Below, in pieces: positions 28,791 to 64,000 of a stretch of 64,000 nucleotides of DNA. The DNA is taken from positions 1 through 64,000 of the forward strand of contig NZ_JAUSUW010000018.1 of NCBI RefSeq assembly GCF_030814435.1, in the 5' to 3' direction. The notes below the pieces were generated by a model. The model did not search any database and was not told where the DNA came from. It was given only the letters and a program-made list of their open reading frames with translations. The position numbers were made by a program, and so were the translations under genes. The number at the start of each line of letters is the position of its first letter. Position 1 is the stretch's first letter. This DNA is from Peteryoungia aggregata LMG 23059. Lineage in GTDB: Bacteria > Pseudomonadota > Alphaproteobacteria > Rhizobiales > Rhizobiaceae.

Positions 28791-29143
28791 GTTCAAACCT
28801 GTGCTCCTTTGTCTCCATCGGACAAACCTTTAGTTGGTCCCTGGGCGTTTGGGTAGGTGGCCCAATCTTTGCCACCCGGTTCAGGTGAGGCACCTGTGAA
28901 TGGAAGTGAGTACCGCTGATGGTGCTTCCATTCGTCTTGGCACGAAGCACTCGCGGTGCCGTATCGGCATTCAGGATTTGCAGGGTTCTGTCGACGAGGC
29001 AAAGCCCTCGAATGATGGATGTGCGACATGTATCACCATCCGTCTCATTTCTCCGGGCTGTGGGCTGAGTGAAATTCTGGGCTACTTCTCTGAGAGCAAG
29101 TGCTATCTGGTAGCAAATTCACATCATGCAGGCTGTTTCTTCG
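28791..29143. other. divergent intergenic region
   Basis: A 353-base gap between the PhyH-like gene and the acyltransferase gene, which should hold both promoters. I see CAGGTG-AGG-CACCTG near 28,883 as a small palindrome but no gene, no clear promoter pair and no JUMPstart/ops element. Confidence 0.35.
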
Positions 29144-31006
29144 ATGTCGCTCCAATACAGACCTGAGATTGATGGATTGCGTGCGATCGCCGTCTCTTCA
29201 GTCCTTATCTACCACGCAGAATTCCAGTTCGGGCAGGATACTCTACTCGAAGGAGGATTTTTGGGTGTCGATATTTTTTTCGTGCTCAGTGGCTATTTGA
29301 TCTCCAGGATCATTTTTTCAGCGCTTCTTACAGGGAACTCCCTGTCCATTGTGGATTTCTATGATCGAAGAATCAGGAGAATCCTGCCGGCGCTGCTAGT
29401 CGTCATAATAGTATCAACCCCATTGGCGTGGATCTTGCTGGCCCCTTCTGATTTGGAGGAGTTTGCAGGAAGTATCGTGTCTTCGATATTCTCGTATTCC
29501 AATATTTTTTTCTATTTTTCTACAACGGAATATGGTTCTGACAGTTCGCTATTGAAGCCATTCATGCATACATGGAGTCTGAGTGTCGAAGAGCAGTTCT
29601 ATCTATTTTTCCCGTTGATTGCTATTTGGATATATAAAGGCTCCAACATCCGGGCTTTGACGACTTATGCATTCATCATTGTCTCTTCTTTGGGTGTTTC
29701 GCATTTTCTATTGTTTTTTGATACCAGTCTGAACTTTTTCATTTCTGTCACGCGTTTTTGGGAGCTTGCGGTCGGGTCCTTGCTCGCTTTTTACGAGCTG
29801 CGGTGGCGTACCGTTCACGGTCACTCCTGGATCGGCGCCGTAGGTTTCGCCTTGGTGCTGCTGTCTATTGCCAGTTTCAGTGCCTCAACTCCGCATCCTT
29901 CGGTGTTGACTGCTGTCCCGGTGCTTGGCGTGGCGTTGGTTTTGCTTTTCGGTTCATCCGCCACACCACTGGGGCGCATTCTGTCGATCGCTCCGCTCAG
30001 ATGGATCGGCTTGGTCAGCTACTCGGCCTACTTGTGGCACTTCCCGTTGATGGCGTTTGGCAGGATTGCATTCCCCAATGCGACCAACATTGACAAGTTG
30101 CTCTGGATTGCGATGACATTTTTCCTTGCTGTCTTGACTTACTTTGCGATTGAGGTGCCCTTTCGCAATCGACGGCTGATGTCCGCCTCGCGCGTTTATC
30201 CCGTGCTTGCAATCCAGGTTGCGCTTATTCTTGGTGGTGCAATTCTGGTTGATGCCAGATCCGGATTTCCTGAGAGGGTCCCGGACCAGGTTCGGCAGGA
30301 GAATTTCGATGATAGGGTTCGCTATCAGTCTGACTTTCAGAGATGCCACAAGCTCGCTGCCATGACGGGACCGGCCGATCAGGCATTTTGCAAGTGGGGA
30401 AATTTTCCGTCAAATGTCTACCTGGTTGGTGATAGCCACATGGTTGCCCTCGCCTTTGACTTGCGAGCCAAATTGTTGGCTCGGGGGCAAAATCTCATTC
30501 TGATGACACGTCCTGGCAGCGCATTCGGGAAAAATCCTCAGCTCGACAAGATGAGAATGACCCAGTTGGCGCGTGCTAGGAATGATGTCGTTATACTCGG
30601 TGGTTACCTGCACCGCGAGAGTGACGAATTTTTTGAGGGTAATCGCTCTGCATACGAAGAACTTGTTTCTGATCTTCTCTCACGGGGTAACAAAGTTGTT
30701 TTCGTTTATCCTATTCCATCAACATATATAAATCGCGCCAGCTTGTTCCAGGAGTATGTGGTCAATGGCTATCTCAAGGATGTGAAGTCGTCGAGGAATG
30801 ACTTTGAAAATTCAGCGAGAAAAGCCTACAGATTTCTGGATGGTCTGGGCGGTGTGAATGTCTATCGCGTCTACCCCGAGAGTGTTCTGTGTGATGATCT
30901 TTTTTGTTATGGAATTAGAGGTAATGAAATATTGATCAGTGATTTTGACCATCCTTCGACGGTTGCATCAGGTTTTATTAACGACCAATTGCTTTTGAAG
31001 TTGTAA
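29144..31006 (+). CDS. acyltransferase 3 with C-terminal SGNH domain (OafA-like)
   Basis: A 620-residue protein of the OafA type that transfers acetyl groups to surface glycans. The N-terminal acyltransferase-3 domain (about 1-350, ten or eleven helices) has YRPEIDGLRAIAV, the catalytic His in LIYHAEF, GVDIFFVLSGYLI and TWSLSVEEQFYL. A linker helix leads to an SGNH hydrolase-like domain with the Ser motif VYLVGDSHMVAL and the Asp/His pair in SDFDHPS. A two-domain layout of this sort normally moves acetyl-CoA-derived acetyl across the membrane and onto sugar. Low-GC codon use differs from region 1. Confidence 0.9.
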   Translation: MSLQYRPEIDGLRAIAVSSVLIYHAEFQFGQDTLLEGGFLGVDIFFVLSGYLISRIIFSALLTGNSLSIVDFYDRRIRRILPALLVVIIVSTPLAWILLAPSDLEEFAGSIVSSIFSYSNIFFYFSTTEYGSDSSLLKPFMHTWSLSVEEQFYLFFPLIAIWIYKGSNIRALTTYAFIIVSSLGVSHFLLFFDTSLNFFISVTRFWELAVGSLLAFYELRWRTVHGHSWIGAVGFALVLLSIASFSASTPHPSVLTAVPVLGVALVLLFGSSATPLGRILSIAPLRWIGLVSYSAYLWHFPLMAFGRIAFPNATNIDKLLWIAMTFFLAVLTYFAIEVPFRNRRLMSASRVYPVLAIQVALILGGAILVDARSGFPERVPDQVRQENFDDRVRYQSDFQRCHKLAAMTGPADQAFCKWGNFPSNVYLVGDSHMVALAFDLRAKLLARGQNLILMTRPGSAFGKNPQLDKMRMTQLARARNDVVILGGYLHRESDEFFEGNRSAYEELVSDLLSRGNKVVFVYPIPSTYINRASLFQEYVVNGYLKDVKSSRNDFENSARKAYRFLDGLGGVNVYRVYPESVLCDDLFCYGIRGNEILISDFDHPSTVASGFINDQLLLKL

Positions 31007-53518: not shown

Positions 53519-54418
53519 CTAATTAATCTTTTGCAGCGCATATTTGTTTGGTTTCCAGCCTAGTTTTTCTGTCGTATCTCCGATGTCTGCTTCAAGATTT
53601 CCAATGATTTTCTCCAGGGCAGCGTTATTCTCGAACAGTCTGCTTTTCAAAATTGAAGACGCCAGTTTGCATAGCCACCTTGGCGCCTTCGTCCAGCCAA
53701 GTTCTTGAAGAATTTGCTCAGTGGAAACGCTGTTTCCGTCGGCTGCGAGGAAAACTTGATTGGCTGCGTTTGGATGCTCACTTGCGATCAAAAGCAAGTC
53801 GCAGAGATTGCTGACATGCAGCAAGGATCGCCTATTTTGGATCAGCCCCAGTGGTGACGGTAAACCTAGTTTTCCCAACTTTGCCAGGGTCGCAATATTA
53901 CCCTTTACGCCCGGGCCATATACCAGCGTTGGGCGTATAATGACTATTTCCAAGCCTGTGTCTCTGGCGAGTTCCAGCAGGGCTTTTTCAGCTTCCATTT
54001 TTGAAATTGCATAAGGCCCCTCAGGGTTAGGGGAGGCGTCTGCCTTGAAAGGGCAGCCCAACTCTGTCCTCTCACCATTGACCTTTATTGTACTTACAAA
54101 CACAAATCGCCGGACCCCGCAGCGGGCAGCGGAACGGGCAAGATGGAGAGATGCCTCTACGTTGGATTGGCGAAATTCCCTTAAGGGCTCACTCGACCGG
54201 TCATTCATCACGTGTACACGAGCGGCGAGGTGAACGATTACCTCCACCCCGTCAAGAAGCGGGTCCCAGTTCATCTCGGTGGTATATGTCGGGATCCGGA
54301 CCAGCCCTTCCCTATATGTTTGGGATACGCCAATGCATGGATGCGCCCTGCGATGCAGTTCTTCCATCAGGCACGTCCCTACGAAGCCCGAAGCGCCCGT
54401 CACCAGAGTGAATGTCAT
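53519..54418 (-). CDS. NAD(P)-dependent 4-ketoreductase/epimerase (WbpV/WreQ-like)
   Basis: A 299-residue SDR with LVTGASGFVGTCLMEEL, HLAARVHVMND, VFVSTIKVNGE and the Tyr/Lys motif YAISKMEAEKAL. HVMNDRSSEPL and RRSLLHVSNLCDLL recall the reductases that convert UDP-2-acetamido-4-keto-sugar into UDP-QuiNAc or UDP-FucNAc, partners of the membrane dehydratase encoded directly upstream. The stop of that dehydratase gene overlaps this start by 4 bases. QuiNAc versus FucNAc as product is not decided by the sequence. Confidence 0.85.
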   Translation of the reverse strand: MTFTLVTGASGFVGTCLMEELHRRAHPCIGVSQTYREGLVRIPTYTTEMNWDPLLDGVEVIVHLAARVHVMNDRSSEPLREFRQSNVEASLHLARSAARCGVRRFVFVSTIKVNGERTELGCPFKADASPNPEGPYAISKMEAEKALLELARDTGLEIVIIRPTLVYGPGVKGNIATLAKLGKLGLPSPLGLIQNRRSLLHVSNLCDLLLIASEHPNAANQVFLAADGNSVSTEQILQELGWTKAPRWLCKLASSILKSRLFENNAALEKIIGNLEADIGDTTEKLGWKPNKYALQKIN

Positions 54419-56370
54419 TCCTCAGCATCATCCCGTTGCGAACTGAGTGGGTCTGTCTGCGCCACGTCACCTTCTTCCTGGATTAACGAGAAAAGAATGG
54501 CTCTTGCCTCACCGCTGTCCTCGCGATCGACGGCGAGCTGGAGAGCCGCAAGCGCACCACCCAGATCCTGATGGCCGATCGTTGAAGCGTCTGCCCGCAT
54601 GATCTTCGGGTGTGCCGTGGGTGTGGCGTGGTCACGGTTGTAGAAAAGTTCTTCGAACGGCTTCTCGCCTGGCCGCTTGCCGATCACCTGAATTGCGATT
54701 CCATTTTCCGCATTATCCTCACCCCTGATCTTAAATCCGGCGAGGCGGATCATGTTTTCAGCAAGGTCTCCGATACGGACGGGGTTTCCCATGTCGAGAA
54801 GAAATACATCGCCACCCTCGGAAAGGGCGCCAGCTTGGACAATGAGTTCTGCGGCTTCGGGGATCGACATGAAGTACCGTGTCATGTCTGGATCCGTTAC
54901 AGTCACAGGGCCTCCCTTGGCGATTTGCTGCTTAAACAGGGGAACCACGGAACCATTGGACCCGATCACATTGCCAAATCTAACTGCGCAGAATGTCTGC
55001 TTGCTCCCGCTCTGCAATGCCTGAGCCGCCCGCTGGCGCACGATCAACTCGGCCCAGCGTTTTGTCGCTCCCATCACGTTGGCCGGCCGCACGGCTTTGT
55101 CGGAGGAGATAAGGACGAAACTCGACACATTCTCTGCCGTCGCAGCCTGGGCGAGGGTAAGTGTGCCAAACACGTTGTTACGAATACCCTCAAGGACATT
55201 TGCCTCTAAGAGCGGAACGTGTTTGTGGGCCGCGGCGTGATAGAGCACTTCGATCCTGTTTTGCCGGATCGTCCTTCGGACCAGCCGTTCATCGGTAACG
55301 GAACCGAGGATCGGCACTATTTCTGGTCCGCCTTTGTTCGTCAGTTCCTGCTCGATCTTGTAGAGAGCATATTCGCTTGCTTCAAAAAGGATAAGTTTGG
55401 CTGGTTTCCAAGTTGCGATCAGGCGACAGAGCTCCGACCCGATTGATCCACCGGCTCCGGTCACCATGACGGTCTTTCCGCTGAGCGCGCGCGCCAGCAG
55501 ACCCTTGTCAGGCGGCACGAACGAGCGTCCGAGCAACTCATCAATCTCGATTTCCCGAATCTGATTGACGATGTATCTGCCATCGACGATGTCAGAAATG
55601 TCCGGAACGCTGCGCACCTTTATTCCCAATCCTGCCACGCGGGCGATTACCGCTTGACGCGCTTCTGGTGGGATGGATGACATCGAAAGCACGATCTCGC
55701 GAATTCCGTATTGATCAACGAGTCGTGGCAAGTCGAGAGGCGAAAAAACACGGTATCCGCCGATGTCACGGCCATGGTTAACCGGATCGTCGTCAATCAA
55801 TCCCATCACATACCTGTTCCCGTGGCCACGCAAAGCGCTTGCCAGTTGGGCGGCGGTTGCTCCTGCTCCATAGATAAACGTCGGTTCTTCGTCGCGCCTA
55901 AGGCCTGTGCCCGCACTTAGCACCCACTTTGCCGCGAACCTGGAACTACCGATCATGAGCGTCCCAAGCACGAAGTAGAGCACCGGGACCGAACGCGGTA
56001 CGATGCCTTGACCTGACATTTCGGTGAGGAAGACGATAATGACCCAGCACATCGTTGCGATCATCATCGCTCGGAAGATTGTCCAGATCGCGGCTTCCGG
56101 CAGGTAGCGAATTACGGATCTGTAAAGTCCCAAGCGAATGAAGACTGGAATGGCGACCGCAATCGCCATGAAGGCTAAGATTAATCGTTCTGGCGTGATT
56201 GCGGGAGACCAGTTGGAAAGGCGCAGTGCATACGCGGCCCAGATCGCGCTGAGCAGCAAAGCACAGTCAATCAGGATCATGACGAGCCGCTTCAAACGCC
56301 TTGGAGTGCGAATGATCCGATCGCGAAGTCGGCGAACGAGGGGGTGCCGAACGAGTTCTGAATCTGTCAT
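54415..56370 (-). CDS. membrane-bound UDP-GlcNAc 4,6-dehydratase (WbpM/CapD/WreV-like)
   Basis: A 651-residue protein of the long FlaA1 class. Four membrane helices lie in residues 25-150, then a first Rossmann-like domain (PTFIYGAGATAAQLASALRG) and the catalytic SDR domain with VMVTGAGGSIGSELCRLIA, YHAAAHKHVPLLEAN and SSDKAVRPANVMGATKRWAE; as in this class the catalytic Tyr is replaced by Met (NVMGATK). It produces UDP-4-keto-6-deoxy-GlcNAc. It forms a unit with the reductase downstream and the initiating transferase upstream. Confidence 0.93.
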   Translation of the reverse strand: MTDSELVRHPLVRRLRDRIIRTPRRLKRLVMILIDCALLLSAIWAAYALRLSNWSPAITPERLILAFMAIAVAIPVFIRLGLYRSVIRYLPEAAIWTIFRAMMIATMCWVIIVFLTEMSGQGIVPRSVPVLYFVLGTLMIGSSRFAAKWVLSAGTGLRRDEEPTFIYGAGATAAQLASALRGHGNRYVMGLIDDDPVNHGRDIGGYRVFSPLDLPRLVDQYGIREIVLSMSSIPPEARQAVIARVAGLGIKVRSVPDISDIVDGRYIVNQIREIEIDELLGRSFVPPDKGLLARALSGKTVMVTGAGGSIGSELCRLIATWKPAKLILFEASEYALYKIEQELTNKGGPEIVPILGSVTDERLVRRTIRQNRIEVLYHAAAHKHVPLLEANVLEGIRNNVFGTLTLAQAATAENVSSFVLISSDKAVRPANVMGATKRWAELIVRQRAAQALQSGSKQTFCAVRFGNVIGSNGSVVPLFKQQIAKGGPVTVTDPDMTRYFMSIPEAAELIVQAGALSEGGDVFLLDMGNPVRIGDLAENMIRLAGFKIRGEDNAENGIAIQVIGKRPGEKPFEELFYNRDHATPTAHPKIMRADASTIGHQDLGGALAALQLAVDREDSGEARAILFSLIQEEGDVAQTDPLSSQRDDAEE

Positions 56371-56406
56371 TGGTTCTCGCCCGTATTCCCTATTTGGTTG
56401 TGCGGT

Positions 56407-57975
56407 TCAATGGGATACGCCCTTCGCGCTGGCGACTTTGAGCGCCGTCAGGATCAATATCCGCAAATCGAACATGAAACCCCGGCGCAGCAGATACTCG
56501 GCGTCATAGGCAACTTTCAAGGGAATCTCCAGTTCATCCCGCCCATTGATCTGGGCCCAGCCGGTCAAGCCAGGGGGAAGAGTGTGCACGCCTGCAGTTG
56601 TCCGTGCTTCGATGAGGTCGTCTTGGTTGAACAGGGCAGGGCGGGGCCCCACCAGGCTCATCTGCCCCTTCAATATACACCAGAGCTGAGGCAGCTCATC
56701 GAGGCTGCTTTTTCTCAAGAAGCCTCCGATCGGGGTCAAATGCCGGGAAGGGTCGCTCAACAGATGTGTGGCGACAACAGGCGTGTCAGCCCGCATGGTG
56801 CGGAACTTCGGCATAAGAAAGATGCGGTTGTCTTTCCCGACACGTTTGGACCAGTAAAGCACTGGACCCGGCGAGCTGGCCCGCACGGCAATCGCCACGA
56901 TTGCCATCGGGATCGCGAAGACCAGTGCAGCGCAAGCTGACATGAGCACATCGAAGAGGCGCTTCAGAACCATATTGCGAAACTTCTCCAATACATTCGC
57001 TAGTGCTTCATAGAGCAGTTCATAACGTGTCGCCAGTCTCTTGAGGATGCGGCCGTAGGAACGTCGCCCGATCAGCGCCATCGGTCGAAACGAGAGAGCA
57101 ATGGAAGTGAAATTCCGTGTCTCTCCGGCCAAAATCAGAAAAGCTGTAAAGACGACAGGTGGCAGGGCCGCAAGTCCCGGGAATGGAATAGCCGGATCAT
57201 AAAGCCATACGAGCGCCATCAGCGAGAAAAGAGCGCTCGCACCCGCCACATTGAAGGCCTTCCTGTGGCTCTCCACGAATGCTCTCCGTTCGGGCCAGAG
57301 GGCAAGTGCGACACCCGTGAGAAGTTCCCAGGCACGATAGGGGAGCAGGTAGAAAGCCGCGTCTGGGCGTCCCGGGAGTGTGATGGCGCTGGCGACGAGA
57401 CTGATGACCCCCAGGCAGATGACTGTAGGGAGCAGCCACTTCTTCAGCGCCGAGACAAAAAAGAGCGCCGCGACGGCAAGGTAGAATTGTTCTTCGATGG
57501 CGAGAGACCAGACATGCAACCGCGGCTTGGTCAGGTGTCCCGTATCGAAGTACCCGAGCGTGTCATGGAAGTGATGGTTGGCGAGAAGGGTAACGCTGCC
57601 TCGGACGCTACGAAGAAAGGTCTCGTAGTCGGGCGGCATGAAAAGTGACCATGCCGCCAACCAGCTCAGTGCAACGACGGTCATGAAAGCGCCCGCCAAT
57701 CGCCTCGCGCGTCTCTCGAAGAAGTCTAGGGCGGTGAACGGACCAGCCTGCTGCCGGCGCATCACCGAGGACGCGATCAGAAAACCCGAGACTACGAAGA
57801 AGATGTCGACGCCGATGAAGCCGCCGGCGAAACCAGGAACGCCAGCATGGAACGCGACGACTGCCATCGCAGCAATCGCACGAATGCCGTCTATGTCATC
57901 ACGGCTCGCTGCTTTCTTGCATATCGACGCGATCGCGCTATTGGGGCGCTGATCCACTAGCAATGTCGCCGACAT
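56407..57975 (-). CDS. fusion: truncated acyltransferase 3 plus initiating sugar-phosphate transferase
   Basis: A 522-residue protein with two unrelated membrane domains. Residues about 26-305 are acyltransferase 3: DIDGIRAIAAMAVVAFHAG, GVDIFFVVSGFLI, HVWSLAIEEQFYL; the domain breaks off at LIGRRSYGRILKRL, where family members continue with YLxHxP and two or three more helices. Residues about 335-522 are a complete PglC/WcaJ-type phosphoglycosyl transferase: MVLKRLFDVLMSACAALVF, SSPGPVLYWSKRVGK, PKFRTMR, the catalytic Asp-Glu in SSLDELPQLW, and SLVGPRPALF. An internal ATG at 56973 with GGAGAAG upstream could still give the transferase alone. Start 57975 has GAGG upstream; 57999 is the alternative. 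Confidence 0.88.
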   Translation of the reverse strand: MSATLLVDQRPNSAIASICKKAASRDDIDGIRAIAAMAVVAFHAGVPGFAGGFIGVDIFFVVSGFLIASSVMRRQQAGPFTALDFFERRARRLAGAFMTVVALSWLAAWSLFMPPDYETFLRSVRGSVTLLANHHFHDTLGYFDTGHLTKPRLHVWSLAIEEQFYLAVAALFFVSALKKWLLPTVICLGVISLVASAITLPGRPDAAFYLLPYRAWELLTGVALALWPERRAFVESHRKAFNVAGASALFSLMALVWLYDPAIPFPGLAALPPVVFTAFLILAGETRNFTSIALSFRPMALIGRRSYGRILKRLATRYELLYEALANVLEKFRNMVLKRLFDVLMSACAALVFAIPMAIVAIAVRASSPGPVLYWSKRVGKDNRIFLMPKFRTMRADTPVVATHLLSDPSRHLTPIGGFLRKSSLDELPQLWCILKGQMSLVGPRPALFNQDDLIEARTTAGVHTLPPGLTGWAQINGRDELEIPLKVAYDAEYLLRRGFMFDLRILILTALKVASAKGVSH

Positions 57976-58228
57976 TCGGTGCCTCGGTTTCGCGGTCATG
58001 ACTCCGAAACCAGATACAATGGCTGGAGCAACATTGAAGTTTGTAGGTCGTCACATTCGTTGCTCCTACGGTATCCTTTTCTCACATTCGATAATCTTGG
58101 CACCCACTACGTGATACTGAGCAAAATGGCGTAACGCTCGTATTCTGACGGCTACCGTTTCGCTTATGCTTAGCGATAAGGGGACCGCATTAGTCAAAAC
58201 GACTTGTTTTTCGGCTTGACACGGATAG

Positions 58229-59221
58229 GTGGTAAATTGGAAGAAGTTGGGAGCAATGCTCAATTGCGTCCTTTGGGGGTGCATGGATTGCATTGCATTC
58301 TTGCGTTCGGGCTGGCGGGGTAAATCGTTGTTTCTCAATTCTTTGAAGCATAATATTTCAGTATTCTGGGGAGACTGGCGAGGAAAGCTGATAGTTTGTA
58401 GCGTCCTTGGGATATGCCTTTTAACAGTATTGTCGTCTATATTTTTTCCGAAGCTCGGAGACGTAAGTACGTTCTGGGGTGCGTTCTATGCGTCTTGGGT
58501 GGCTGGGCTTGTTATGTTCGTCGCCACCGGCCTAATTATAGCGGCTGTAACCATTCCCTGACCCGAGCAGGACCTGATTAATACGCGCATCCACAACCTT
58601 TTGCAGCGTCAGCAGGGGCCCCATATCGACTACATTTCTAAAAAGTTGGTCGGCCTTCTTGAGCCTTACATGGAGCGGGTAGAAAGAACACTGCACGTTG
58701 TTAAATACGACAGTGCTCACAAGATGTTTTTGGTCAACCAAGATACCGAGATTGTTTATAAATCCTATCTCTCGGACGCTGATGTGACCTTTCCGTCTCG
58801 AGTAGGGTATACAAATGCACCACTGCCGCCACCTGGGGGAGACGACTGTTGCCTTGCATATCTACGCATTGATGGAAAGGACTTCGGGGGACGCGAAACG
58901 TTTACTTCCAAGATCGTTCGTCCATTTCAAATCACGATCAAGTCGCATTCAGAATGCGTAGTGAGGCATCGAATGGTCTTTTGGGTGGCCGTCAACGAGC
59001 CGAATAGGCAGCTTGCAATTCGGTTTACACGAAAGATGACTGTCATGATCAACAATCAGCTTGGCACCCACAAAATCAAAGTGACCCATCATGGAGGCAG
59101 TGGGCAAAACGGCGTGATCGAAGGTGGTGAGACGTCAATAGTTGTTAACAAGCTGGATGTCCATCCCGGCAAAAGCAACACGGATTTTGCATTTCATTTC
59201 ACCTTGGATATTGAAAATTAA
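58229..59221 (+). pseudogene. two-TM protein of unknown family, interrupted by in-frame TGA
   Basis: One continuous reading frame of about 330 codons broken by a single TGA at 58559-58561. The first part (110 codons) ends in two membrane helices (KLIVCSVLGICLLTVLSSIFF and SWVAGLVMFVATGLIIAAV); reading on in the same frame gives PEQDLINTRIHNLLQRQQ, then a soluble part of about 200 residues with many strands (YTNAPLPPPGGDDCC, DGKDFGGRETFTSKIV, KVTHHGGSGQNGVIEGGE). No family is recognised. Start is GTG 58229 or ATG 58256. The stop could be a recent nonsense change, so the gene is listed as broken. Confidence 0.6.
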
Positions 59222-59606
59222 CGTGTAACAACATATTACTGGAGGAACTGAAGGAGAATCTAATGAGATTTGGTGACGATATCGGAGCGTAAGGCTCATT
59301 GTGTTTATGCGGTGCCAACTCTGAACCGCAGTACGCCTTCTAGGTTGTCGGGTTGGTTATAAGTTGGCGTTCAGCTTAGTAGGTGCTGTTCTCTCGGCCA
59401 CCTTTGGAGCCCTTCCCGTGGGTTTTTGCCCATCAGAGTGCGGCTCATGTTGTAACCATTTTTCTTTGATGTGGTTCGAGATATAAAAGGCAGGGTTTTC
59501 CCTGCCTTTGTGCTGGCCCGCAGGCCAGAATATGCGTTCGCCCCGCATCCGGAGCGTTGCTGATCCGCAGACCAGAACCAAGAATTACCGGGTACCGCGA
59601 AGTAGG
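59222..59606. other. intergenic region between the broken gene and the transposon operon
   Basis: A 385-base gap that should contain the transposon end. At 59263-59292 a tiny frame, MRFGDDIGA, follows the strong site GGAGGAACTGAAGGAGAATCTA and could be a leader or the cut 5' end of a gene. CTGGCC-CGCA-GGCCAG at 59513-59528 is a small hairpin. I could not define terminal inverted repeats or a target-site duplication by eye. Confidence 0.4.
59486..59509 (-). terminator. terminator of the transposon operon
   Basis: AAAGGCAGGG and CCCTGCCTTT form a perfect 10-bp stem with a 4-base loop. Read on the minus strand it is followed by TTTTATATC, a usable T run, about 100 bases after the stop of the last transposon gene at 59607. 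Confidence 0.75.
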
Positions 59607-60260
59607 TCAACCGGCCTGCCTATTTCCCGGCCGGGTCATCAGTTCGAGGATTTCGTCCTCAAGAGAGGCCAGGCGGAGTTCGTGATCCTGTGCCGCCTTC
59701 GCCATAGCGTCCACGTATTCATTCCGGATGCGGCGCTCGATCATATTGCGCAGCGGAACAATGGCGCTCGCTACCCCTTCGAGAACCTGCTCGAAGTCTT
59801 CCTGCGAGACCCTGGGGACCCATGTACACTTTCCACGCTCCAGGTACTTTTCCAACCTGCAGATACTCGCCGTCATGACCATGTCGCAGATCGCCCAGAC
59901 CGGGCGCTCTTTTTCAGGCCCCGGATTTTCCGAAAGCTGGCGCAGGTACGGGGGCAGGGGCTGGCCGGTTGCGAGAACCATGGGAGGTACGCTGCTCAAC
60001 GGCACGAATACCACGGTACCCTGGTTGGCTGACATGGAGACGGGAGGACGAAGGATCACGCCCGGGTGGTAGCCCGTGAACTCGGGTTTGCGGGAACCGG
60101 GAGCCGCGGCGATCCAATAAACTTCCCTAGCGGCCGGCTTACGCGTGATGGTCAGCGTATTGCAATCCCAGTGATCGAGAGCGCCCCGCATCCTGGGTTC
60201 GTTAGCGGCGTCCGCAGAAGCTGACCGCGCGGGCATGACGATGGTTTTCCTATGCTTCAT
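59607..60260 (-). CDS. transposon accessory protein with MazF/PemK-like segment
   Basis: A 217-residue protein. Residues about 45-150 read like a MazF/PemK barrel: TGYHPGVILRPPVSM, GTVVFVPLSSVPP, then PVWAICDMVMTASICRLEKY, which correspond to the strand, Pro-x-Thr/Ser and RL positions of that family. The C-terminal 60 residues are helical with a coiled-coil look (DHELRLASLEDEILELM). MazF toxins are RNases; whether this one cuts RNA is unknown, and no antitoxin gene is beside it. GAGGAG in the end of tniQ serves as its ribosome site, 8 bases before the ATG. Confidence 0.7.
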   Translation of the reverse strand: MKHRKTIVMPARSASADAANEPRMRGALDHWDCNTLTITRKPAAREVYWIAAAPGSRKPEFTGYHPGVILRPPVSMSANQGTVVFVPLSSVPPMVLATGQPLPPYLRQLSENPGPEKERPVWAICDMVMTASICRLEKYLERGKCTWVPRVSQEDFEQVLEGVASAIVPLRNMIERRIRNEYVDAMAKAAQDHELRLASLEDEILELMTRPGNRQAG

Positions 60261-60265
60261 ACGCT

Positions 60266-61753
60266 CTACTCCTCACACATGGAAATCGTATCAGACTGAT
60301 GCTGGCGCTCGGGGAGCTGGTTGCCATCGAGCGCGATCCGAACACCGCGAAACCCGGTTCGCCCGTCCACGTCCCTGACTGCGATCTCGCCTCTCAGGAT
60401 AGCCACCGCCACATCGCCAACGGGGCGGTTCTCAGCACGGCAGTAGGCGCGGAACTTCCGCGACGCTCCTGTCGACACTCGTGGGATCAGTGCGATCAAA
60501 CGGAGGATTTCGTCGACCTGTCGGCGCAGGAACCGAAAGCCGCGGTCGCCATCGCAGGAGGCGCGTGAAACGGGAATGAGATAGCCGGCGGCCGAGAGCG
60601 GCGAGATTTCCCAGCTCCGGATACCGAGCAGGTCTCCGACCTTTTCCCTCGAGAGGAGTGCCCCAAACTCGCGCTTGATCTCGGCGATCTGGGAACTGTC
60701 GAAGGACATTCGTCGCTTGCCGTCTTTGGCTTTTCCGGCAGAACCAAGTGCGCTGATCAGGCTAGAGAGGCCGCGACGGTCCACTCCAATCTCGGCAGCC
60801 AGTTCGGTGAGGCTCACCATTCCATCGTCGTCGGCTTGGGACGCATGGCCGCCTGTCAATACAGTGGCGTGCGCCTTCCGGAAGGCAGAGAGGAGCATCC
60901 TCTTCGCAGAAACATCCAACAGAGAGCGAGCCTGGTCGTACGCCCATCCGAAAACGACCGAATAGGAACGATCGATTTCCGCACGGAGGAGGTTGCGTTC
61001 CATCCAGCGAGCAATCGCACCGACCAGATGTGCGCGATCACTGGCCAAGGCCCGATAGCCTGCATCGACCGTGCGCGAGGCCAGTTGGGGAATGCTATCC
61101 GTTTTGGAGTTGGACACGAGACGGCCGACCAGATGGCAAAGGTCGATCACGACCGTCGCGTCGAGGCCGTCAAGCAATGGTGCTTTCCAAGCGTCTTCGT
61201 AGTCCATGCGCATAAGGAGGTAAGCCGCCAGCGTGCCGCGACGTAGGACGTTGGGACGACGCGGCCCTGCCAGGGCGTTTCCGCTTTTTGTCACGTCGAA
61301 CCTCGGCCACCACCAGCCGACCGGGCGATTGTCGATATCGCGGTCCACCAGTTCCAGGTCGTGGTAGGGGCAGCGGCGCACAGCCAGGATGTCCCACCAG
61401 CTTCGATGGTAGGGCTTCTCGGCCAGACAGGCGGGACACCAGCGCCGTCTTCTAAAAGAAAGGTCGCGCCTTGCAAAACGTTGCCCACCGAGCCAGTACG
61501 ATCCATCCCTTTCGACGGGAGTGGCGTGGGCTAGACGACGTCTGCGGTCGTCGGAGATGGGGAGGTCGCATACGACCTCGAGCAGGGACGAAGGGACGAT
61601 GTTGCGACCGTTGACCTCAATCCATTTCGAGTAGACCCGCATGCTGTCGTGTCCCTCGTCATCCACGAGGCGAGCGAAGTAGCCGAGCGCACCCTCGGTG
61701 TTTCCGGGTTCGACCGACCAGTTGCTGAACGGCATCGTCAGGCGATCAAGCAT
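60266..61753 (-). CDS. tniQ: TniQ/TnsD-family target-selection protein
   Basis: A 495-residue TniQ protein. The N-terminal region with FARLVDDEGHDS leads to the zinc-binding part: RRWCPACLAEKPYH (first Cys pair) and VRRCPYHDLELVD (Cys and His), as in TniQ/TnsD. The long C-terminal part would read DNA or contact a target factor. In related elements it links the ATPase to the target site. The ATG at 61753 is fixed by a perfect GGAGGTGACCGCC ribosome site inside the end of tniB, overlapping it by 8 bases; a frame extension to 61792 is not needed. Confidence 0.9.
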   Translation of the reverse strand: MLDRLTMPFSNWSVEPGNTEGALGYFARLVDDEGHDSMRVYSKWIEVNGRNIVPSSLLEVVCDLPISDDRRRRLAHATPVERDGSYWLGGQRFARRDLSFRRRRWCPACLAEKPYHRSWWDILAVRRCPYHDLELVDRDIDNRPVGWWWPRFDVTKSGNALAGPRRPNVLRRGTLAAYLLMRMDYEDAWKAPLLDGLDATVVIDLCHLVGRLVSNSKTDSIPQLASRTVDAGYRALASDRAHLVGAIARWMERNLLRAEIDRSYSVVFGWAYDQARSLLDVSAKRMLLSAFRKAHATVLTGGHASQADDDGMVSLTELAAEIGVDRRGLSSLISALGSAGKAKDGKRRMSFDSSQIAEIKREFGALLSREKVGDLLGIRSWEISPLSAAGYLIPVSRASCDGDRGFRFLRRQVDEILRLIALIPRVSTGASRKFRAYCRAENRPVGDVAVAILRGEIAVRDVDGRTGFRGVRIALDGNQLPERQHQSDTISMCEE

Positions 61754-62702
61754 GGCGGTCACCTCCGCGGCCGAAGGGGACGTAATCCGCATCCAGTGAA
61801 AGCCGCTCCGCGGCGGCGCGCCGAAGATGTTGTAGAGTGATACGGGGACTATCGTCGTTGATGGCGAAGAACGCGGCAGCCGTGATCACGTTCATCGGCC
61901 AGCCGATCGTGCCGCGGCAGATGTGGAAGAAGTCGGCGACGTACTCGTTTTCGCCAAGTCCCGACAGTTCGCGAAACGGCAGAAGGCGATCGACGCCGTG
62001 GAGGAAGTACTGAAGCCGCTGACGGTCCTCTACGCTGTTCTGGTCGTACTTGCGCATGCGGAAGCGGGGAAGGCCGCCGCGTCCCTCGATTTCCGGAATC
62101 TCCATCATCGCCTTCTCGATCGAGGGATGTCCCGAGAGCAGGATGTTACAGAAACGCCGATCGGCGACGTACTTGACTAGGGACATGGCGACCGTCCTGC
62201 GCTGACCGCGGTCGTGTAGGATCGCGTGCGCGTCGTCGATAACGAGAAGCTTGACGCCCATCTTCATGAGCCTCGTCGTCGCCATCTTGTTGATGGTCGC
62301 CGCGGAAAGGTTGGGGATCGCCGCCGCGGCCGTTGCGTCGTAGATTTCCCGTCCCAGCGACATCGAATTCCAGTCGCGGCGGGCCTCCACATAAAGTACG
62401 GGATACTCCCAACCCGTCTCCGTCTGAACCGGAGGACGCTTGCTGGCGAAGTACTGCAGAACGAAGGACTTGCCGCTGCGGTAGTCACCCAACAGCGTTC
62501 CGACTTGGCCGACATCGGGAGTGCCGCCCTCCACGGGCATGTGGAACCGTTTGATGTCCTTGAGCCGCGCGAGAAAGTCGTCGCTTCGGAAAAGGACATC
62601 TCGTACCATCGCCTGGCGCTCGGCAGGCGGGCGGGTGGCCGCCTCCGCCCGCTGTTCGGGGGTCACGATCGGGTTAACGTTGAACTGCGGAAAAACCCTC
62701 AT
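61746..62702 (-). CDS. tniB: TniB/TnsC-family AAA ATPase
   Basis: A 318-residue ATPase that regulates the transposase and recognises target complexes. Walker A is GTLLGDYRSGKSFVLQYFA, Walker B LLVIDDAHAIL, and the sensor region ILLSGHPSIEKAM. A helical lid follows (FFHICRGTIGWPMNVITAAA). Size and motifs fit TniB rather than the longer TnsC of Tn7. The ATG at 62702 overlaps the transposase stop by 4 bases. Confidence 0.92.
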   Translation of the reverse strand: MRVFPQFNVNPIVTPEQRAEAATRPPAERQAMVRDVLFRSDDFLARLKDIKRFHMPVEGGTPDVGQVGTLLGDYRSGKSFVLQYFASKRPPVQTETGWEYPVLYVEARRDWNSMSLGREIYDATAAAAIPNLSAATINKMATTRLMKMGVKLLVIDDAHAILHDRGQRRTVAMSLVKYVADRRFCNILLSGHPSIEKAMMEIPEIEGRGGLPRFRMRKYDQNSVEDRQRLQYFLHGVDRLLPFRELSGLGENEYVADFFHICRGTIGWPMNVITAAAFFAINDDSPRITLQHLRRAAAERLSLDADYVPFGRGGDRHA

Positions 62703-64000
62703 TCGTCTTCTCCTTCGCTATGGAACTTGTCGAAAAGATCGGCCGCGGACGTGCCGGCCTCGGTGTCAGTCAGTCCATCGAGCGGCGGCGGATCGACTTG
62801 GGTGCGCCTCTTGCGGGGTTCGATTTCGCCTGTGCGGTCTTCGAAAGGGTCACTGGACAATGGGACGGCGTGACCCTTGTCATCGACCTCTGGGCCTGGC
62901 GCGAAGATTTCGTCGGGCGTGCTGCCGCGGCGTGATTGCGCGTCGATAGGTGACCTGTTTGCCGGGGCGGGTTCGAACGGCTCATCGATGCGCATGCGTT
63001 CGGCACTGGCAGTGGCGCTGGGGACCGGATCGACGATGCGACTGCGCGCGAACTTGCGCTTGAGGCCCGCGAAGAAGCGTTCGAAGCTGTACTTGACGCG
63101 CATCGCCTTTCGGCGCTCGTTGAGTTCCTTCAATTCTTCGGTCATGGTGCCGCGCAGGGAGAGAAGGTCCGTGACGGAGGATGCATCCTCCTTGAGGCGG
63201 TCACGGTAGACCTGTTGAATGGCGCGGTGGCGCGACAGCGTCATACCCGTTGCGTATGCCGCGTCCGAGCCGCAGATCGGCACTTCGATGAAGGTCGGCG
63301 GGTTGACGTGGTGGTTGACGAGCCAGATGCGCGAGAGATCATTCGGATCGCGGACGCACTTGTAGCGGGTTGTTTCCGATCGGTCCGCCGCGGAGCGGTG
63401 CTTGGGGTCGGCCGTGAAGACTGCCAAAGCCGGATCGGCGTAGCGCAGGCAGTCCCAGAGGATGCCATCGTTCTGGATCGTCCTGTGTGTGAAATCGCCT
63501 GCGAGACGAGCAAAGATGAGCGGATCGACGGGACGGCGTGCCGGAGCCTGCTTGATCGTGGCGGCCCACTTGTCGTTCGGGATCGCTTTCATCGAGCGGA
63601 GAACGCCGATGCCCTTGACGGGACGCGTGTGATACTTCGTCGCGAAATAGGTAAGGAGCCAGGCATTCAGCTCAGAGAGTGTCAGAACCGGCAGTCCCGC
63701 GTTCTTGGCGTCGTCATATAGCTTTCGGCGCTGAGGATTGGAAAATGTCGAGCCAGGCGCGATGTGGAGCACGTCCTGATTGATGACCCCGAAGGTCCGC
63801 TCGACCCCGCCTTTTTCCCATCCATGGGAGCCTCGGTATTCGACGATCCGGAAACCAAGCTGGGCGGCCGCCGAACGCATGTTCTCCGAGATGTTTTCCA
63901 TCGCGAGATCGACGCCCACTTGCGCGGGCAATCCATATGGAAGGTAGACGATACCTGGAAAGGCAGACATGTCCTTGGGGTAGATCGCGTGCTTGAGCGC
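62699..64000 (-). CDS. tniA: TniA/TnsB-like DDE transposase, partial (5' end outside window)
   Basis: The last 433 codons of a Mu/Tn7-type integrase; the frame is open to the right edge, so the start lies beyond 64000. The second catalytic Asp is in QVGVDLAMEN and the Glu in WEKGGVERTFG; the first Asp is outside. After the catalytic core comes the barrel-like C-terminal Mu-type domain (RDPNDLSRIWLVNH) and an acidic, proline-rich tail ending FDKFHSEGEDE that probably contacts TniB. It cuts and joins DNA ends. Confidence 0.92.
   Translation of the reverse strand, partial: ALKHAIYPKDMSAFPGIVYLPYGLPAQVGVDLAMENISENMRSAAAQLGFRIVEYRGSHGWEKGGVERTFGVINQDVLHIAPGSTFSNPQRRKLYDDAKNAGLPVLTLSELNAWLLTYFATKYHTRPVKGIGVLRSMKAIPNDKWAATIKQAPARRPVDPLIFARLAGDFTHRTIQNDGILWDCLRYADPALAVFTADPKHRSAADRSETTRYKCVRDPNDLSRIWLVNHHVNPPTFIEVPICGSDAAYATGMTLSRHRAIQQVYRDRLKEDASSVTDLLSLRGTMTEELKELNERRKAMRVKYSFERFFAGLKRKFARSRIVDPVPSATASAERMRIDEPFEPAPANRSPIDAQSRRGSTPDEIFAPGPEVDDKGHAVPLSSDPFEDRTGEIEPRKRRTQVDPPPLDGLTDTEAGTSAADLFDKFHSEGEDE

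Follow-up and report, generated by a model that had tools for sequence, protein, structure and literature searches.

Acyltransferases of the OafA/OafB type combine an acyltransferase-3 domain (AT3, PF01757) with an SGNH domain (PF19040), and such AT3-SGNH proteins are reported to need both (PMC7448272). In the published model of OafB, transmembrane helices 9 and 10 (TMH9 and TMH10) bound the entrance of the acyl-CoA channel, and an SXXXY motif lies on TMH9 (PMC9833829). A C-terminal alanine racemase is given as the second commonest AT3 fusion (PMC9558356); fusion of an AT3 domain to a phosphoglycosyl transferase was not described in the titles and abstract openings of the papers listed. On the transferase side, monotopic enzymes fused to other domains form a known class, the Bi-PGTs, whose partner domains are reported to be functional, and WbaP-like large monotopic transferases bear an N-terminal four-helix bundle (PMC10942596). 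Here we describe a locus of Peteryoungia aggregata LMG 23059, within a window of 64,000 nucleotides (contig NZ_JAUSUW010000018.1, positions 1 to 64,000), in which an AT3 domain and a monotopic transferase share one open frame. The sequence confirms the join, whose probable origin is a mundane genetic accident and not the evolution of a two-in-one enzyme.

Architecture of the fused frame

The minus-strand frame at 56407–57999 is uninterrupted over 530 codons, or 522 amino acids counted from its second ATG (57975). As read from the sequence, GGAG lies only 2 nt before the ATG at 57999 and GAGG lies 6 nt before that at 57975, so, if the fused chain is translated at all, it more probably begins at 57975 and has 522 residues. 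A Pfam profile search matched Acyl_transf_3 (PF01757) at residues 35–316, a C-terminally incomplete match to profile positions 3–281 of 326 (76 bits, cut-off 31), and Bac_transf (PF02397) whole at residues 346–522 (positions 1–177 of 179, 182 bits). Both matches are far above chance level. A sequence-only reading had described a single frame made of a cut AT3 domain and a whole transferase, and the open frame and the Pfam limits bear this out.

Structure prediction of the fused chain was mostly confident for the AT3 half (blocks of 78–98, lower at residues 1–30 and 141–180), gave ~58–64 over residues 311–350 and was poor for the transferase half, for which just 3 of the 33 added rows gave coverage. 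It placed eight helices (seven by hydropathy) before the junction, followed, at low confidence, by a probably helical linker, with one helix spanning residues 317–373 at a pLDDT of only about 45–64. In a fold search of the PDB nothing reached E≤0.001; PglC came closest, at 3.3e-3.

The acyltransferase half

Residues 1–317 (57049–57999, minus strand) form a 3'-truncated OafA-type gene fragment by Pfam, comparison with relatives and structure prediction, and the protein they encode reads as the front part of an OafA-type AT3-SGNH protein. Residues ~33–316 align with OafA/OafB enzymes, at 42–46% identity among the best matches listed. TMH1–8 and the motifs of TMH1–3 are retained: the R/K-X10-H of TMH1 (R40, H51), GGFIGVD, FFVVSG and the RxxR before TMH3 (R97, R100), named after PMC7448272 and PMC9833829. 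Unlike OafA/OafB, the fused protein lacks TMH9, TMH10, TMH11 and the SGNH domain; no PF19040 match was found in the frame by Pfam. Set against a ten-helix AT3 domain it falls short, the profile match stopping at 281 of 326 with eight helices predicted before the linker.

In the family survey, residues 1–317 were matched in 114 of 394 genomes at E≤1e-40, and no match passes residue 316. The matching frames are mostly of 610–790 amino acids, with a few shorter or longer. Relatives supplied 94 frames for comparison, of which 80 came from genome contigs and 14 out of the family search. Of the 90 complete ones, 80 have a C-terminal tail of more than 250 amino acids past the AT3 match, and in five the tail is below 120. 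The break after LIGRRSYG, as first read from the letters, holds on alignment with these full-length homologues, which continue past the junction point as IGLISYSLYLWHWP (SYSLYLWHWP or similar) while the match to the fused half ends at residue 316. Among the 80 long relatives, 84 columns are conserved at ≥85%. The fused protein contains 74 of them (60 identical) and has lost the ten in TMH9–10, namely the L, Y, L, W, H and P of the LYLWHxP stretch and, later, A, E, P and R. S314 abuts the junction, and I318 sits where the relatives have Y. Because TMH9–10, with the channel entrance and SXXXY, and the required SGNH domain are absent, the AT3 half is expected to be inactive and should acylate nothing.

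The missing part was sought elsewhere in the genome with the PF19040 profile and with C-terminal segments from two relatives, and neither an orphan SGNH domain nor a C-terminal AT3 half was found. Only a paralogue at 29126–31006 was matched, with the sole genomic PF19040 match at 30341–30988. This gene, which shares its contig with the fusion, encodes an AT3-SGNH acyltransferase that is intact.

Substitutions at conserved sites were counted after leaving out 14 of the 94 frames (four at locus ends and ten with tails ≤250 amino acids). At columns conserved ≥95% the fused half is substituted at 6 of 47, a number that none of the 80 relatives reaches (maximum 5), and at columns conserved ≥85% it is substituted at 14 of 74, equalled by two of the 80; since the relatives from genome contigs were picked by words taken from the query, and the fused half is less identical to the relatives (mean 0.348) than their median (0.394), this excess gives a slight hint of decay. 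The open AT3 frame of 317 codons was considered as a sign of selection and rejected as such, the simulated chance of a stop-free frame under neutral drift being 0.41, 0.27 and 0.19 for three assumed drift amounts, of a size that the changes at conserved sites suggest; the result is compatible with constraint as well. No relative of the AT3 half exceeds 46% identity among the matches listed in the genus, family, order and class surveys, so its drift is undatable and a substitution-rate test impracticable. Some of its unusual residues may be old.

The transferase half and the junction

The 3' part of the frame is a complete small monotopic phosphoglycosyl transferase gene (56407–56973, minus strand) of 188 amino acids from the ATG at 56973 (residue 343). 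It resembles PglC-type small monotopic transferases (PF02397) in its complete catalytic domain with SLDELPQ and GPRP stretches, and differs from them in continuing the frame of an AT3 fragment that lies upstream. Residues 340–529 align with residues 6–191 of the PglC chain from Campylobacter concisus (8g1n, 8e37), and the alignment includes the Asp-Glu of SLDELPQ and the PRP motif, which have a catalytic role. Values of dN/dS against four relatives were 0.145, 0.101, 0.075 and 0.093, with dS >1.2 and near saturation in three of the comparisons. On these grounds we judge the transferase complete and under purifying selection. No other match to it was found on the 76.5-kb contig (E≤1e-3), so the polysaccharide cluster probably depends on it; a second transferase of the same family, 41% identical, lies on contig C7. 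No relative was found among viral contigs. An NDP-sugar epimerase/dehydratase gene (Polysacc_synt_2; 54415–56370, minus strand) comes after the transferase in a conserved module.

DNA homology to relatives is unbroken from ~54.5 kb through the epimerase, the transferase and 67–74 bp of its leader, and ends at 57047 in genome G016 (80% identity), 57044 in G049 (75%) and 57040 in Rhizobium sp. WL3 (76%). AT3 protein homology ends where this homology of transferase-leader DNA begins. Beyond 57047 the window has AT3 sequence, and the sequence of G016, G049 and WL3 there is unalignable to it. Because the homology continues to the junction and stops at it, we assign the 25-codon stretch that leads from the AT3 half to the ATG at 56973 (residues 318–342; 56974–57048, minus strand) to the old leader of the transferase, formerly non-coding as judged from the DNA alignments and a GC content of 0.44 vs 0.59 and 0.58 in the two coding halves. 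Read in the fusion frame, the leader contains a stop in six of eight relatives (G049, G017, G028, G039, G030 and G007) and is stop-free in G016 and WL3; in G028, G039, G030 and G007 the leader has diverged too far for blastn to carry the alignment up to the junction.

The leader also carries start signals of its own. An internal ATG at 56973 with a ribosome site had been picked out previously, and it is indeed preceded by GGAG (56989–56986), a 12-nt spacer separating the latter from the ATG (56973–56971; whole element 56971–56989, minus strand). This arrangement is mostly common to relatives: GGAG-N12-ATG/GTG occurs in five of six aligned leaders, the fusion's own included, and thus in four of five relatives. 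The exception is G017, with TGAG, and the start slot holds GTG in G049 and G017. In the WL3 orthologue the annotated start lies two codons past the ATG slot, not before it. Of the three frames of the 75-nt leader kept here, only that of the transferase is free of stops, so about a third of joins at this point would yield a fused frame and the shared frame is less improbable than it appears.

The leader (56974–57048) aligns between genomes with differing upstream DNA, and in three comparisons the ends of the alignment fall within 7 bp of one point; upstream of it, G049 and G017 resemble each other. The pattern may reflect a regulatory element under conservation, or else a boundary favoured in module exchange. 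A search for transposon ends found no repeat in 56900–64000 with an arm at 57047, and the junction 20-mer is single-copy within the window.

Distribution and neighbourhood

A search for other fusions with the same junction, which the sequence-only reading had proposed, came back empty. No second fusion was found in 394 genomes of the family (E≤1e-70), 397 of the order (E≤1e-60) and 337 of the class (E≤1e-50), or among the matches listed for 63 genomes of the genus, in four overlapping sets, searched at thresholds too strict for fusions whose halves are only weakly similar. Among the matches listed, only the genome of the window itself was matched across both halves. A 704-residue frame with 58% identity and one internal stop appeared in the genus survey in G052, and no AT3 of the fused type was found in its 20-kb stretch. 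Three of 72,556 plasmid records cover ≥80% of the query, all from Agrobacterium larrymoorei. In the two regions inspected, transferase and AT3 are separate genes in reverse order. They share with the fusion the adjacency of transferase and AT3 genes in a polysaccharide locus, and differ from it in carrying an intact AT3-SGNH gene after a transferase that is only 35% identical. On pAlCFBP5473 (L134 4962–7585), for instance, a sugar transferase is followed by a gap of ~60 bp and an intact AT3 protein of 642 amino acids.

We examined 28 loci with related transferases (52–91% identical), over at least 1.5 kb of upstream flank in 26 and over 313 and 831 bases in two. None of the 28 has an AT3 gene of the fused type in the upstream flank, by a test that detects AT3-SGNH relatives and that missed the diverged AT3-only gene of G016 used as a control. 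That gene (found by Pfam; 312 amino acids; L118 7927–8865) lies on the same strand 3.7 kb upstream of the transferase, and G016 also has an AT3-SGNH gene ~9 kb downstream of it. G028 has an AT3-only gene on the opposite strand, ~2 kb upstream of its transferase. A weak AT3-profile match (L127 1996–2244, E 3e-6) was also seen, on the strand opposite to the transferase there and >7 kb from it. No parent locus carrying both genes was found among the 28. Since related loci have no fused-type AT3 gene upstream, this gene may have arrived by a wider rearrangement and not by simple deletion between old neighbours.

A mobile island adjoins the polysaccharide cluster at 58000–64000 and continues to 75.4 kb of contig C18. 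It holds a MazF/PemK-like gene (59607–60260), TniQ (60266–61792), TniB (61746–62702) and, in the position of a transposase, a frame at 62699–64150 whose IS21-type match is weak and falls short of the cut-off. Further right are HATPase and metallophosphatase genes, a resolvase and two tyrosine integrases. A SIMPL gene (75456–76403) ends the island; its region is 84% identical to one in G028, where the counterpart lies ~5.9 kb from the transferase. A rearrangement, perhaps tied to this island, is as reasonable a guess as simple deletion, if not a better one. Of the earlier proposal that a deletion had fused two neighbouring genes and left the second as the working part, the accidental in-frame fusion and the working second half are supported, and the former neighbourhood of the two genes is not.

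Origin and function of the fused frame

We regard it as very likely that a private rearrangement left a working transferase behind a dead AT3 remnant. In outline, the first 317 codons of an AT3-SGNH O-acyltransferase gene would have been joined to a point ~75 bp before the transferase ATG, through a leader that by chance had no stop in the fusion frame. The transferase would be the sole functional part, translated from its own GGAG-ATG at 56973, as the tail of the fused chain, or both, and would start the polysaccharide of the cluster by moving sugar-1-phosphate onto undecaprenyl phosphate on the cytoplasmic side of the membrane. With a cytoplasmic N-terminus, eight helices would return the chain to the cytoplasm before the linker, so the fused protein would not block the transferase. 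Counting against this reading, the AT3 fragment is still open over 317 codons and keeps its main catalytic motifs, the leaders of G016 and WL3 are likewise free of in-frame stops, and the 28 loci yielded no parent locus with both genes.

The same facts could be read otherwise. The fused chain might itself be the working transferase, with the inert eight-helix remnant as membrane anchor, or the promoter and start site of the AT3 gene might drive the transferase. An anchor of this kind would recall the four-helix bundle reported for WbaP-like enzymes (PMC10942596), and it is compatible with the helices and predicted helical linker. Transcription from the AT3 side is possible because a simple scan of 56300–58600, for sites of the sigma-70 type only, found none where 1.4 were expected. 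We nevertheless think either arrangement unlikely, given that the native GGAG-ATG is intact and common to relatives, that conserved sites of the AT3 half show excess substitutions and that the genome surveys (for the genus, the matches listed) contain no second example. A true bifunctional enzyme, acylating and priming the lipid carrier or the first sugar, is scarcely credible. In its favour are one continuous open frame, retention of R-X10-H, FFxxSG and RxxR, and the precedent of the Bi-PGT class, which likewise attaches an extra domain to the transferase domain. Against it, the lost helices are those that flank the entrance of the acyl-CoA channel in the model of OafB (PMC9833829), SXXXY is incomplete, with S314 at the junction and I318 in place of Y, and the second domain reported as required in AT3-SGNH enzymes (PMC7448272) is missing. 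AT3-family acylation takes place outside the membrane and priming inside, and the surveys (for the genus, the matches listed) hold no other example. Bi-PGTs are reported with functional partners (PMC10942596), and here the partner is a truncated remnant seen once. The bifunctional alternative of the sequence-only reading accordingly finds no support in either the truncated partner or the surveys. Misjoining of unrelated stretches in the assembly, conceivable in a draft genome of 31 contigs with a junction present in no second genome surveyed, is very improbable: the junction is internal to a 76.5-kb contig, and a misjoin predicts the missing C-terminal AT3 half elsewhere, which was not found in a genome rated 99.95% complete.

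A search by domain architecture would report an "acyltransferase-phosphoglycosyl transferase" at this locus, and such a report calls for caution. Comparison with relatives instead shows a truncated gene in frame with its neighbour through that neighbour's old leader. There is some small chance that the architecture is young, private and functional, a captured eight-helix AT3 remnant anchoring a working fused enzyme through a linker that was once a non-coding leader. If the fused chain does work, it would be a recent case of an anchor and a linker derived from non-coding DNA being added to a polysaccharide-initiating enzyme.
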